A stretch of 64,000 bases of DNA from Balamuthia mandrillaris. Its lineage: Eukaryota; Discosea; Longamoebia; Balamuthiidae. The position numbers and the translations under genes were made by a program. Location: contig JAVKOQ010000115.1 of the NCBI GenBank assembly GCA_031835245.1, forward strand, positions 1 to 64,000. The letters run 5' to 3'. Below the pieces are notes generated by a model. That model did not search any database. It had not been told where the DNA came from and was given only the letters and a program-made list of their open reading frames with translations. Each line of letters opens with the position of its first letter. Position 1 is the first letter of the stretch. Shown here one piece after another: positions 23,384 through 28,572 of the stretch.

Positions 23384-26099
23384 CGTACTCTGGGTCGACA
23401 ATGGTGCGAAGATGTTTGCGGTGGTAAAAGGCAGGGAGCGATCCAGAATAGAGAGAATAGCCGGTGTGACGGTAAATGGTGGCCCTATCAGCCAAGGCCA
23501 GCATAGTCCTTCCACGTCCGGAGGGCACTTCCCTGGGCACTTTCCTACCAGGCACATGAACTTTTGTGAACAAGGGTCTCGACCTTTTGATGAAAGGCCT
23601 CTCTCCTTCAAGGCTCTTAAAGTAACGCTTCAATGCCTTTTCATCCGCCTTGCGAGAGCCCAGCGTCAGCAGAAGGATCAGGTCGTAGGCTCCGCGCTTA
23701 CCACGTTTGGCTCCATTGTCATGAAACTTGAACATGAACACCTCTTTGAGGATAGCGCGAAGTGGGAGTTTCATTGCGGTCGCTATTTCGGAGCACAGAG
23801 TGGGAGCGGCATATCTCTGAGTCTTCACCATGTAGATGTGGCCGTCTTGGAGGGTTTCTGGAGATGGCAGCTTTGTTACTTCAGCAGCGCTTGGGTTGCA
23901 AACGATGCCGCGCAAAGGGAAGAACTTGTTCAGAAGGTTTTGGCAACGCAGGCTGTGAACCACACGAGAGTCGGAAGCTGAAAGATCCACGAGAGAGACG
24001 AGGGTAATGGTGGACAGATCTCTCCACAGCTTCAAAGCGTTGTGAGGTTCTTCTGCTACGGAGGAAGCACTTGACGTGAGACGCTCTCTGCCTTTCTCGT
24101 CTTGCTCGCTCTCTTTTTCCTCTTCCGTTTCTTTCTCTTTCTCTGCTTCGATACGAGCTGACTCTTGCCGCATCTTTGCACGAGCAAGAGTGGCAGCATA
24201 CTCCGTCAAACCATCGGAAAGTAACTCAACGAGAGTCCTATAGAAGGTGGAATGGTTTAACGGAACCTCAGTAGGAGGAAAAGGCATGTGCTGGTATTTG
24301 ACGTCTTTTTGCACGCTGGTCACCAACTTTTTAAGAAGCTCCTCGCTGGCGTATTCTAGAAAACCACTTTCGGCCATCGTTACAAAGTGGGTGCGGAGGT
24401 AGGCCATGCAGAACTCGCTCAGAAGAGGGCAGTCATGATATTCGGCGATGTCGTACAGTAGGCATGCATTACTTTCGTCCACTTCTTTACACAAACAATA
24501 TTGGCATCTCTATAATGCATCATACTGAGAGTGAGCGAATGAAGAGAGAACGAGAAGCAGAAAAGTTGAGAGAGTGATGACGTACATAAACCAAAGCAGA
24601 AAGATTATAACGATGGGCGAGTGGCAATAGCTCCAACACAGCCTGTGCATTTGTAGCTTCTTGTTTCTTTTCGTCGATGATGTCGGGATTGGCACCGCTG
24701 TAAATGAATGCAAGCAATTGTTTGAAAATAGAAGGAGAGGCATCGTCCACCACTACTCTGTTGCTCTGTGATTCCAACAATCCAGCTGTTGGTAGAAATA
24801 TTGGTATCATAAGAATTAAAACAGACACGTTCTTATGGAAGAAAAATAGAGAGAGAAGAGAGAAGAGAGAAGAGAGAAGAGAGAAGAGAGAAGAGAGAAG
24901 AGAGGAGAGAAGAGAGAAGAGAGCAAAGAGAGAGAAGAGAGAGGAGAGAAAAGAGAAGTAAGAGAAGAGAGAGCGAGAGAGCAAGCTAGAAACAAAGAAA
25001 AACAGAAGAAAAAAGAAAAAAGAAGAATAGGACAAAAGAAAGCAGCAGTACCAGAAAACATTCTTTCAAAATAAGGTGAAACGGCAGTCAATATGGACTT
25101 GTGGGCACGCAATGGCTGCCCTTGCACCACAAACGTTACATCACTCAGTGCTTTGAGGCTGTTATCCGAAGAAGAAGAAGAAGCTGGTTTGCCTTCCTCC
25201 TCGCTTTCATCTTGGCAAGTTTTTTCAAGGCAGTCGAGCATAGATTCCACGAACGGGAAAGGATCAAAGGTAACACGCCGTGTTGAACTCTGCTGCACGT
25301 CTCCGGGTAGAACCAAAGGCACTTGATGTTTATGGGCGTAGTCTTTCAGCTCTTTTTCATGTGTGCGGACTTGCAGGTTATTTGTATAAACATATTCCTG
25401 GGATCGTTGTTTAAGTGTCTCTTTGTTATTTGCTCTCTGCTCTCTGCTCTCTGCTCTCTGCTCTCTGCTCTCTGCTCTCTGCTCTCTGCTCTCTGCTCTC
25501 TGCTCTCTGCTCTCTGCTCTCTGCTCTCTGCTCTCTGCTCTCTGCTCTCTGCTCTCTGCTCTCTGCTCTCTGCTCTCTGCTCTCTGCTCTCTGCTCTCTG
25601 CTCTCTGCTCTCTGCTCTCTGCTCTCTGCTCTCTGCTCTCTGCTCGCTTAGCTTCTCTCCTCTGGCGTACCATGAAAGCCTTAAAGACGGGCAAAGAAAC
25701 GTCGGTCATGTGCACTGCAACCATGGGTTCTTTAGGGTGGCTCTCCTCTCCCGCTTCGTCACTCTTGTCCGCGTCGAACGGCGGCAACACGGCAGCAGCC
25801 CAAGCGGACACGCGTGCATGAAACATGACCCGGTGGCCATAGACCTGTTGGGTGCATGCCTTGTTGGTATCAACCTCCTCCTGACCTCCCGCTCCCGGTG
25901 TTTCGCTCGCTGGTGCCTCAGGAGGAGCAAACACGAAACGGAGGTCGGGGTAGAAGCTCTCGGCCTTGTTGAGGAGCTGCTCCAGCGGTCTGCTCTGCGG
26001 GAAGGAAAACGTGAAGGGGAAGGCCGGTCGCCAGGGCTCGCCGTGTCGCTCGGCCTCCTTTTTGGCCGAGAAGGTGACCGTGGGGGCTTGTGGCCACAT
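23076..26099 (-). CDS. double BTB/POZ domain protein
   Basis: Adapter-type protein with two BTB folds. The first has YGHRVMFHARVSAW and, across an intron, VFKAFM/EYVYTNNLQ. The second has LSDVTFVVQGQPLRAHKSIL, SPYFERMFS, IFKQLLAFIYSG and a BACK-like continuation (LLYDIAEYHDCPLLSEFC). A Glu/Lys-rich coiled stretch and an unrecognised C-terminal region follow (EVFMFKFHDNGAKRGKRG, TMLALADRATIYRHTG). Proteins of this form often recruit Cullin-3, but no specific partner can be named. The ATG is at 26097-26099. Two introns carry heptamer repeats: 24844-24960 (pyrimidine in sense) and 25434-25645 (purine in sense). The second intron (25398-25670) is 273 bases and stop-free. Confidence 0.78.
24844..24960. 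repeat. heptamer repeat (GAGAGAA)n in intron
   Basis: Inside a BTB-gene intron the + strand reads as repeating 7-base GAGAGAA units, degenerating to GA/GAGGA at the right. The sense (minus) strand is pyrimidine-rich. Confidence 0.8.
25434..25645. repeat. heptamer repeat (CTCTCTG)n, about 30 copies
   Basis: A very regular 7-base tandem repeat with hardly a mismatch over about 210 bases. In the sense orientation of the BTB gene it reads (CAGAGAG)n. Every frame of the unit lacks stop codons, so an open frame continues through it. Confidence 0.9.
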
Positions 26100-26516: not shown

Positions 26517-28572
26517 TCATAACCAAGAGGGGTGGGATGGTACCTTTGCTTTCTTTTTCTTCTTTTTCTTGTCCTTGGTGGATTCCTCCGATGCCTCTTC
26601 CTTTTTCTCCGTTGATTGATCTTCCTCCCTCTTCCTCTTCTTTCCAACGGTTTCCTCCGTCGTCACAGAAACGACAGCAGGAGCCGATGGGGATGCTGAA
26701 GCACCATCCTCTCCTTGTTGTTGGTTGTAATCCACGTAGGCAGACTTCCAAGAGGTGGGCGTCTTCTCGTTGGGCCGTCCGTACTTGTCCAATTTGCCCT
26801 CCTTGATGAGCTCCTTCTTGAGTGAAGCCCTCGGACCCAGACCCCAACGCCTAGGATAGGTGTCCCTCTCCATAATCACGCGCTTGATCTTGGCGACCAC
26901 GCCGTGGTCGCAGGTTGCCATGTCGGCGGTGGACATGAGAGCAATGCCTAGGGCGATAGCCTCTCCCTTGGTGGTTATCAGCACGACCTCCTCGTTGACC
27001 TCCACGCCCGCCTCGTAGCGAAGGAGACCAGGGATCATAAACTTGGCACCATAGCAGATGGCATTGACGGCGCTGTCTTTAACGACCAGGCGCTTGTGTT
27101 TGACAAGAAGAGCTTCAAGGGGCTTGATGACTCTGCGAAGGTAGGTTTCTAATGTGAAGAGGGGAAAAGAGTAGTTAGCCATCAGAGCGAGTGAGCACGC
27201 GAGAGAAAGTAAAGGCACTAACCATCTTTGGTGGTGTCATAAACGTATTGAGCGTCGAGGATATCATGCATGGTTACCATGTTGTCCTGTGAAGGAGGGT
27301 AAAATAGGTTAACAAAACGAAGGGGGAGAAAATCAGAACCAACTAGGACGGTGAAACGAACGTGCTCAGTCAAGAGGCCAGAGCGCACACGCCGCAGCTC
27401 TTGCATGTGACCACCAACTCCGAGAATAAGACCAAGATGCACACAGAGTGTACGCAGGTAGGTACCGGCCTCGCAGTCCACCCAAAATACTCCCAAGTGC
27501 CTGTCCTTGTCAAACTCAAAGAGTTTGCTCTTGTAAATGGTTCTCACACGCAGCCTTCTTTTCACAGCAGAGATAAGGGGTGGGCGCTGGAACAGAGCAC
27601 CGGTGAGTTTCTCGATGGCTCTGGTCAACTCTGTCTCGTCTTTGATGGCATCATGAAGTCGGACTATGCAGACGTATTCCTTACCGGCATTTTGTTGTGA
27701 CTTTACCAGACGGGTGGCTCTTTGAATGCAAACTAGCAGACAGCCTGTGACCTTAGGATCAAGGGTGCCACTGTGTCCCGTCTTCTCCACACGCAATATC
27801 CTCTTTACCCAAGCCACAACCTCGTGAGAGGAGGGGTTGGCGGGTTTGTCCAGGTTGATCACACCATAGCGAACGTAGTCATCAAGGGGTCGCTTCAACG
27901 GAGAACATCCAGAGGGGATTGGCGTGTAGTGTCCCGTGCGCATGTGTAGTTTGTCATAATTCTACAGAACCGGAACAAAAGGCAAAGTCAGGGAAAAAAC
28001 AAAAGGGAGGGATAATAGGAACGAAAATATTCGGAAAGAGAAAACTAAAAGGGTCCCTCAGAGACAATAAATGAGTGGTCATAAGGCACAGCGCCTTTTG
28101 GGTAGGCAAACCCGACGCCTTTTCGTGCTCTTCAGACGCAAATTACTTTAATCACTGGGACATCGGAATTTCTAGTGATTAATACGTAAGGAAAAAGTTT
28201 ACCTTGAGTAGAAGGGGCCATTTGGAGGTGTCGAGTGTGGAGGTCTTCTCCGGCGGAATGCTGAAGCTGTCCTTTTGTTGAAGCTCCGCTACGCTTTCGG
28301 CCTGCTTGCCCTTCTGCTTCTTTTGTTTCTTATCTGTTTGTGTACGGAATGCGGTGAGTGAGTGAGTGATTAAATCAAAATTTAAGCGTCAAAAAATAAA
28401 TTTAAAGCGAAAAATCAGATTCTATGGGTTGGTACTAAGTGTTATAGTCATCAACGCGATTCAATAAGTTGGTGGGCTATGACAATGAAAAACTGTTGTT
28501 CATCCTTTTCTTTTTTCGAGTATCGGAGATAACAAAATAAAAATTTTATTAAAAAAAGTGCGTACCACTCAT
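26517..28572 (-). CDS. CBF5: dyskerin/Cbf5, H/ACA snoRNP pseudouridine synthase
   Basis: Catalytic subunit of nucleolar H/ACA RNPs, which turn uridine into pseudouridine in rRNA and snRNA. The DKCLD N-terminus reads [11 protein letters not shown], then [16 protein letters not shown]. The TruB core has [19 protein letters not shown] and the catalytic [13 protein letters not shown] with its Asp. The PUA domain ([34 protein letters not shown]) and a Lys-rich C-terminal tail follow. Exon 1 is only seven bases (28566-28572, ATGAGTG) and joins in phase 1 to exon 2 (28203-28333) to give MSDKKQKK. Exon 3 starts at 27961. Introns 1 and 2 (about 230-240 bases) are not simple repeats, and each holds a candidate C/D snoRNA on the sense strand. 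Confidence 0.95.
28053..28161 (-). ncRNA. box C/D snoRNA with U16-like guide, in dyskerin intron 2
   Basis: All elements fall in the correct order on the host's sense strand. A terminal stem GTCCC (28161-28157) pairs with GGGAC (28057-28053). Directly inside it are box C GTGATTA (28155-28149, one mismatch to RTGATGA) and box D CTGA (28061-28058). Box D' CTGA is at 28135-28132; a weak C' is near 28082. The guide before D' is GTAATTTGCG plus T (28146-28136), complementary to universally conserved 18S CGCAAATTAC. The box+5 rule points to the A methylated by U16/SNORD16 (human Am484). The guide before D, ATTTATTGTC (28072-28063), is complementary to 18S GACAATAAAT just downstream of the first target. 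Length about 109 nt. Confidence 0.8.
28409..28510 (-). ncRNA. box C/D snoRNA with two 18S guides, in dyskerin intron 1
   Basis: A stem GAAAA (28510-28506) pairs with the T-run and C after box D (28413-28409 region). Box C is AGGATGA (28506-28500, one mismatch). D' is TTGA (28464-28461), C' is TTGATGA (28454-28448) and D is CTGA (28418-28415). The guide before D, ACCCATAGAAT (28429-28419), is complementary over 11 bases to ATTCTATGGGT, a conserved 18S stretch just before GGTGGTGCATGG. The guide before D', CCACCAACT (28475-28467), pairs with 18S AGTTGGTGG about 30 bases further on. Two guides landing on one 18S neighbourhood argue strongly against chance. The target sites themselves are predictions. 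Confidence 0.72.

Follow-up and report, generated by a model that had tools for sequence, protein, structure and literature searches.

A candidate two-guide box C/D snoRNA of the U16/DdR8 type in a dyskerin intron of Balamuthia mandrillaris

Results

The second intron of the dyskerin gene of Balamuthia mandrillaris contains a box C/D snoRNA candidate (28053–28161, minus strand, in the window of 64,000 nucleotides, i.e. the whole stretch analysed), characterized by two guides that each find their best site in the organism's own 18S rRNA. Judging from the sequence, this RNA is likely spliced out, trimmed to about 109 nt, and directs 2'-O-methylation of 18S A479 and A513, a reading to which we assign a probability of about 0.9. 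Its function is supported indirectly, since an RNA with the same two guides exists in Dictyostelium, where both sites are methylated (PMC8817022).

Host gene and anatomy of the candidate

In the splice model, all parts of the host gene are on the minus strand. They comprise the coding part of exon 1 (ATGAGTG, 28566–28572), intron 1 (GT...AG, 232 nt, 28334–28565), exon 2 (28203–28333), the host intron 2 (GT...AG, 241 nt, 27962–28202) and exon 3 (27344–27961). The 3' boundary of exon 3 was set by eye, and 27346–27961 was taken for splicing and for comparison of copies. Exons 1 to 3 stay open when joined, and the spliced product begins MSDKKQKKQ. Exon 3, read on into intron 3, carries the Pfam domains DKCLD (3.3e-27) and TruB_N (7.9e-24). 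Among relatives with a solved structure, H/ACA RNP complex subunit 4 (E 1.7e-114), CBF5 (3.3e-114) and DKC1 (1.3e-108) match best, over the first 199 residues of the exon 3 translation. Both the domain pair and the best match to Cbf5/DKC1 are as expected of a dyskerin gene.

Two further features were observed in this part of the window. A divergently transcribed neighbour runs on the plus strand from 29106 onward, its start, MNVFDYVSKLPQETLDKLY..., resembling by eye the TFIIH subunit p52/GTF2H4. Positions 25431–25645 hold a perfect tandem array of the 7-base unit TGCTCTC (30.7 copies), with all six frames open across it; since the unit length is not divisible by 3, translation of either strand yields a single 7-residue repeat.

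The candidate is read in the same direction as the gene; 41 intron nucleotides precede it and 91 separate it from the 3' splice site. Read on the minus strand, its order is GTCCC-A-GTGATTA-AA-GTAATTTGCGT-CTGA ... ATGACCA ... ATTTATTGTCT-CTGA-GGGAC. The 5' arm GTCCC (28157–28161) and the 3' arm GGGAC (28053–28057) are complementary and close a terminal stem of 5 bp, separated by a single base from box C (GTGATTA, 28149–28155, 6/7 to RTGATGA). Guide 1 (28136–28146) directly precedes a perfect box D' (CTGA, 28132–28135), while guide 2 (28062–28072) directly precedes an exact box D (CTGA, 28058–28061). Boxes C and D near the ends, the closing stem, and rRNA-complementary guides of about 10 nt beside D and D' are the hallmarks of a box C/D guide snoRNA. 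An earlier note on this DNA, made from the letters alone, had placed such a sequence here, with a 5-bp stem, a box C with one mismatch, a box D, and a D' box preceded by a guide, and each of these elements is present. The mismatch in box C falls on the base whose usual k-turn partner is the C of box D. The internal box C' is a weak motif (ATGACCA, 28076–28082, 5/7); C' and D' boxes are variable in Dictyostelium too (PMC8817022).

A scan of the window on both strands, which asked for C/D anatomy together with a 9-bp 18S guide, gave two matches, namely the intron-2 candidate and another one in intron 1. The same scan on 60 Markov shuffles of the window gave a mean of 0.6 matches (maximum 4), with one match carrying both guides in total. 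Because the shuffles average 0.6 matches, the consensus scan alone is weak proof.

Predicted targets in 18S rRNA

A search with the paired target pattern located the 18S rRNA of the genome at three places; any copy in which that pattern is not exact would have escaped it. The intact 18S (L007) scores 1662.6 bits and the other two 1301.5 and 280.3 bits, the last over part of the model. In the 18S, the published B. mandrillaris primers BalaF1451 and BalaR1621 find perfect sites and the probe BalaP1582 a site with one mismatch (letters as given in PMC2612680 and PMC7473209), which fits B. mandrillaris or a very close relative.

Taking the partner of the fifth nucleotide before D' or D as the target base, guide 1 forms 10 Watson-Crick pairs and one G-U pair with the intact 18S and points to A479, the next best run having 6 plus 3. 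Guide 2 forms 10 Watson-Crick pairs (nucleotides 2–11 before box D), with a mismatch at the base adjoining the box, and points to A513; its runner-up has 8 plus 2. Duplex energies are −14.4 kcal/mol for guide 1 and −10.3 kcal/mol for guide 2, and a mean of −13.9 kcal/mol is given for Dictyostelium in PMC8817022. Comparison with the organism's own 18S, a check that the earlier note had proposed, thus puts the best site of both guides at the expected place. Its claim of a second guide pairing about 30 nt downstream also stands, as the predicted targets lie 34 nt apart.

The same spacing is found in Dictyostelium. Table 1 of PMC8817022 assigns CD8 to Am432 and Am466, 34 nt apart, both sites having been found by RiboMeth-seq. 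The guide assignments, including that of CD8, were made bioinformatically, and contact of CD8 with both sites was judged feasible by its authors (PMC8817022). The counterparts of Am432 are Am436 in yeast (snR87), Am484 in human (U16) and Am438 in Arabidopsis. For Am466, that table lists nothing in any of these three species. Arabidopsis sites A440 (SnoR15, U16) and C473 (SnoR7) are listed 33 apart in PMC8053127; by this spacing, the base adjoining the Am466 position would be methylated there under another guide.

Survey of the assembly also disclosed rDNA outside the intact copy. The lower-scoring 18S copies lie inside contigs (L006 in C10, L008 in C32). A 428-nt piece from the 5' part of 28S has matches at 28 places, 25 of them nearly full length, and several lie 1.4–1.9 kb from a contig start; with the lower-scoring 18S copies, they make up scattered rDNA fragments of possibly subtelomeric position. 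One conserved 28S motif was not found in the assembly. Together with the 28 places of the 5' piece, this makes 28S look incompletely assembled.

Relationship to DdR8 and U16

At gathering cut-offs, Rfam gave no match anywhere in the window. A permissive Rfam search of 271 bases (27950–28220) against 4227 families, up to E 5, returned DdR8 (RF01576) as the sole family, with 40.6 bits and E 7.6e-6 over 28057–28158, end to end. This is about half the DdR8 gathering score of 80 bits. Both boxes and both guides are aligned, the printed consensus of DdR8 shows no mismatches to the two guides, and divergence is mainly in the middle. In a search of the whole genome (64.8 Mb), in which 57 of 5687 candidates were scored, RF01576 listed 14 places. 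The dyskerin locus and its second copy rank first with 24.8 bits and E 0.001 each, as scored by that search, and the remaining 12 have at most 16.4 bits. In 7 of 14 control genomes, RF01576 likewise gives matches below cut-off at E 10; its weak matches are therefore uninformative.

We infer that CD8 is the Rfam DdR8, from its number and from guides and targets that fit both sites; DdR-x RNAs with rRNA targets were renamed CDx (PMC8817022). The candidate shares with Dictyostelium discoideum DdR8/CD8 the order of boxes, guides identical over 11 and 12 nt, the 34-nt target spacing, D' being served by guide 1 and D by guide 2, and the ends CCAGUGAU...CUGAG. Kinship is thus indicated by both guides in common and by both CD8 target sites in the organism's own 18S. 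The two differ in length, with 88 model positions in DdR8 compared to 102 bases with a longer middle in the amoeba candidate, and in box C, which is UGAUGA in DdR8 and UGAUUA here. They also differ in setting, which is an intergenic gene in Dictyostelium and a dyskerin intron in Balamuthia.

The SNORD16/U16 model (RF00138), for which 51 of 6867 candidates were scored, had no match in the genome at E 10 (below-cut-off matches in 2 of 14 control genomes) and was absent at E 5 from the permissive scan of 27950–28220. Vertebrate U16 was accordingly rejected as the nearest relative, the nearest one found being Dictyostelium DdR8/CD8. Guide 1 would nevertheless direct the same 18S position as vertebrate U16/SNORD16, yeast snR87 and plant AtU16, A479 being taken as the equivalent of human A484 on the strength of Table 1 in PMC8817022 and of the 34-nt spacing. 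These RNAs differ from the candidate in the second target, which has no yeast, human or Arabidopsis entry in that table. Without an RF00138 match, kinship with U16 rests on the common guide and site. The U16 orthologue proposed in the earlier note is therefore retained as to the guide for the U16 site, while the closest kin found is DdR8/CD8.

A further RNA of this kind is Me-Eh-SSU-A431 of Entamoeba histolytica, listed as the yeast snR87/human U16 site in PMC3542256. Its D' guide resembles guide 1 with one mismatch in 11 nt, whereas it is intergenic, has one listed target, and has other letters before box D (PMC3542256). Guide 2 is absent from the sequence given there, the best fit having 5 mismatches in 12.

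Conservation between two genomic copies

Contig C559 (27,550 bases, positions 1–27550) parallels the window between 23.5 and 51 kb in five blocks of 89.7–92.5% identity, and probably represents a haplotype left unmerged or an old duplication. The pair is useful for spotting conserved non-coding islands. Counting gap columns among the differences, and with a sample of two copies from one assembly, the intron-2 candidate has 0 difference columns in 109 bases, compared to 29 in the remaining 132 bases of the intron, 3 in 131 bases of exon 2 and 10 in 616 bases of exon 3. At the rate of the flank, 109 unchanged bases have a probability of 2e-12, assuming independent sites.

Between 24.0 and 39.5 kb, 19 unchanged islands of at least 109 bases were listed. 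Four are in the dyskerin gene: two in exons, one in intron 1 and one in intron 2. Across the assembly there are two exact occurrences of the two-guide pattern, one in each copy of the dyskerin locus, and a pattern scan for copies outside the genome gave none in viral contigs.

Second candidate in intron 1

Intron 1 contains another box C/D snoRNA candidate (28409–28510, minus strand, ends approximate), recognized by conservation between copies and by a paralogue. It is comprised of box C (AGGATGA, 28500–28506, 6/7), box C' (TTGATGA, 28448–28454), the guide ACCCATAGAAT (28419–28429) and box D (CTGA, 28415–28418). The guide forms 11 Watson-Crick pairs with the intact 18S (−20.7 kcal/mol), its best site, and the predicted target is U1383.

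Compared with C559, the candidate has 3 difference columns in 102 bases and its flank 24 in 130 bases, and the unchanged island of intron 1 (28428–28537) spans most of it. The only substitution in the candidate is inside the guide, where, in our reading, a G-C pair would become a G-U pair. A paralogue on another contig (C11:115899–115966; near 1470–1570 of locus L023) matches at 80% (E 6.9e-12), with identical guide and C' and a perfect box C (ATGATGA). The exons flanking its host intron match importin alpha re-exporter (CSE1) at 2.7e-12; this value includes the preceding exon, the single 59-aa exon beside the paralogue not confirming a CSE1-like identity by itself. In Rfam, intron 1 gave weak matches to snR78 (17.0 bits, E 3) and snR61 (15.1 bits, E 4.3), and to an unrelated viral IRES model (8.1 bits); the paralogue gave no match.

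U1383 lies 11 nt before G1394, the G that precedes UGCAUGG in 18S. From the guide of the Entamoeba RNA for this site (PMC3542256; box assignment ours) and from the human 18S sequence, we take G1394 to be the equivalent of yeast G1271, human G1328 and Dictyostelium Gm1266. Human C1272, the SNORD66 site, was considered as the target and rejected, since counting from the conserved UGCAUGG gives the position of Um1255. In Dictyostelium, Um1255 is assigned to CD20, and lies 11 nt before Gm1266; Table 1 lists nothing for it in yeast, human or Arabidopsis (PMC8817022). Because both lie 11 nt before the equivalent G, U1383 maps to Um1255, and in this the intron-1 candidate is like D. discoideum CD20, the two being compared by target position alone. 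On the D' side, no run of at least 9 Watson-Crick pairs was detected in 18S or in two further 28S-bearing stretches. Runs of 9 Watson-Crick pairs plus one G-U pair occur in the C24 stretch, and the D' side of the paralogue has a 10-base match at two places, without placement in rRNA.

Discussion

The RNA would be transcribed within the dyskerin pre-mRNA and released from the debranched intron 2, whereupon 15.5K, NOP56, NOP58 and fibrillarin would bind at C/D and C'/D'. Guide 1 before D' would then direct methylation of A479, the U16/snR87 site, and guide 2 before D that of A513, the Dictyostelium Am466 site. The intron-1 RNA may follow the same route to methylation of U1383. With this second likely guide RNA in intron 1, the guides for three 18S sites would come from one dyskerin gene.

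We have also addressed whether guide 2 contributes. If only guide 1 worked, the RNA would be a single-target equivalent of U16/snR87, and guide 2 an inherited remnant without effect. The weaker duplex of guide 2, with its mismatch adjoining box D, would fit this, as would Me-Eh-SSU-A431, in which guide 1 recurs with a single mismatch and guide 2 is missing from the sequence given in PMC3542256. We regard this as unlikely, given that guide 2 is identical in Balamuthia and in Dictyostelium, which methylates Am466, a site attributed to CD8 (PMC8817022), and that the stretch between the guides diverged from DdR8 while guide 2 was kept.

A decaying intronic copy, with the working gene elsewhere in the genome, could explain the box C mismatch at a pairing base and the weak C', and the missing 28S motif indicates that the assembly may be incomplete. 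Yet there is no other exact two-guide place in the assembly, the two dyskerin loci are the only ones above 17 bits with RF01576 (57 of 5687 candidates scored), and 109 bases stayed unchanged while the surrounding intron diverged between the copies, so that a pseudogene seems quite improbable. Chance assembly of short motifs would be in line with the matches in Markov shuffles (0.6 each in 60 shuffles), one of which carried both guides. It is contradicted by the agreement of the two targets with those of a known two-target RNA and, above all, by the DdR8 match and the identity between diverged copies, which make a chance origin very unlikely, to the point of being negligible. The preferred reading is therefore a working RNA that uses both guides.

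U16 is intron-encoded in vertebrates, and its mammalian host gene is RPL4. The earlier note had concluded that the host has changed, with dyskerin, a gene for an H/ACA protein, carrying a C/D RNA. The C/D sequence in dyskerin is there; a change of host is only a contrast with mammals (RPL4) and with Dictyostelium (intergenic), and no direction is implied. The arrangement also has a precedent in Drosophila, where mfl/Nop60B (dyskerin) carries four copies of the C/D RNA DmSnR60 and an H/ACA RNA; mammalian DKC1 hosts two H/ACA RNAs (PMC1821038). By its description in that paper, mfl is, like the Balamuthia gene, a dyskerin gene in which C/D RNAs lie singly in introns and carry guides ahead of both D and D'. 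What sets DmSnR60 apart is that it targets 28S (G1083 and A1092) and that its four copies occupy the gene's variable 3' end (PMC1821038).

C/D RNAs inside a dyskerin gene are thus known from Drosophila, and the intron-2 candidate is a well supported further case. What was less expected is that both guides are conserved in two distant amoebae, that the next intron likely carries a second passenger, and that the genomic setting differs. A search of one paper collection for Balamuthia together with snoRNA found nothing.

Taken more broadly, introns 1 and 2 may each release a C/D RNA, covering three 18S sites, with Am466 and Um1255 as old features of amoebozoan ribosomes and with two RNA-modification machineries tied by the splicing of one pre-mRNA, as reached independently in Drosophila. 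We advance this only tentatively, as a possibility that we hold to be rather doubtful; in it, the Am466 and Um1255 sites would not be peculiarities of Dictyostelium. If the reading of the intron-2 RNA is true, a two-target guide RNA has kept both its guides in two distant amoebae, and methylation at Am466, so far described from Dictyostelium, would therefore probably be a wider amoebozoan feature. One and the same guide RNA would then be encoded between genes in one amoeba, while in the other it would ride in an intron of a gene for ribosome modification, next to an intron with a second guide RNA.
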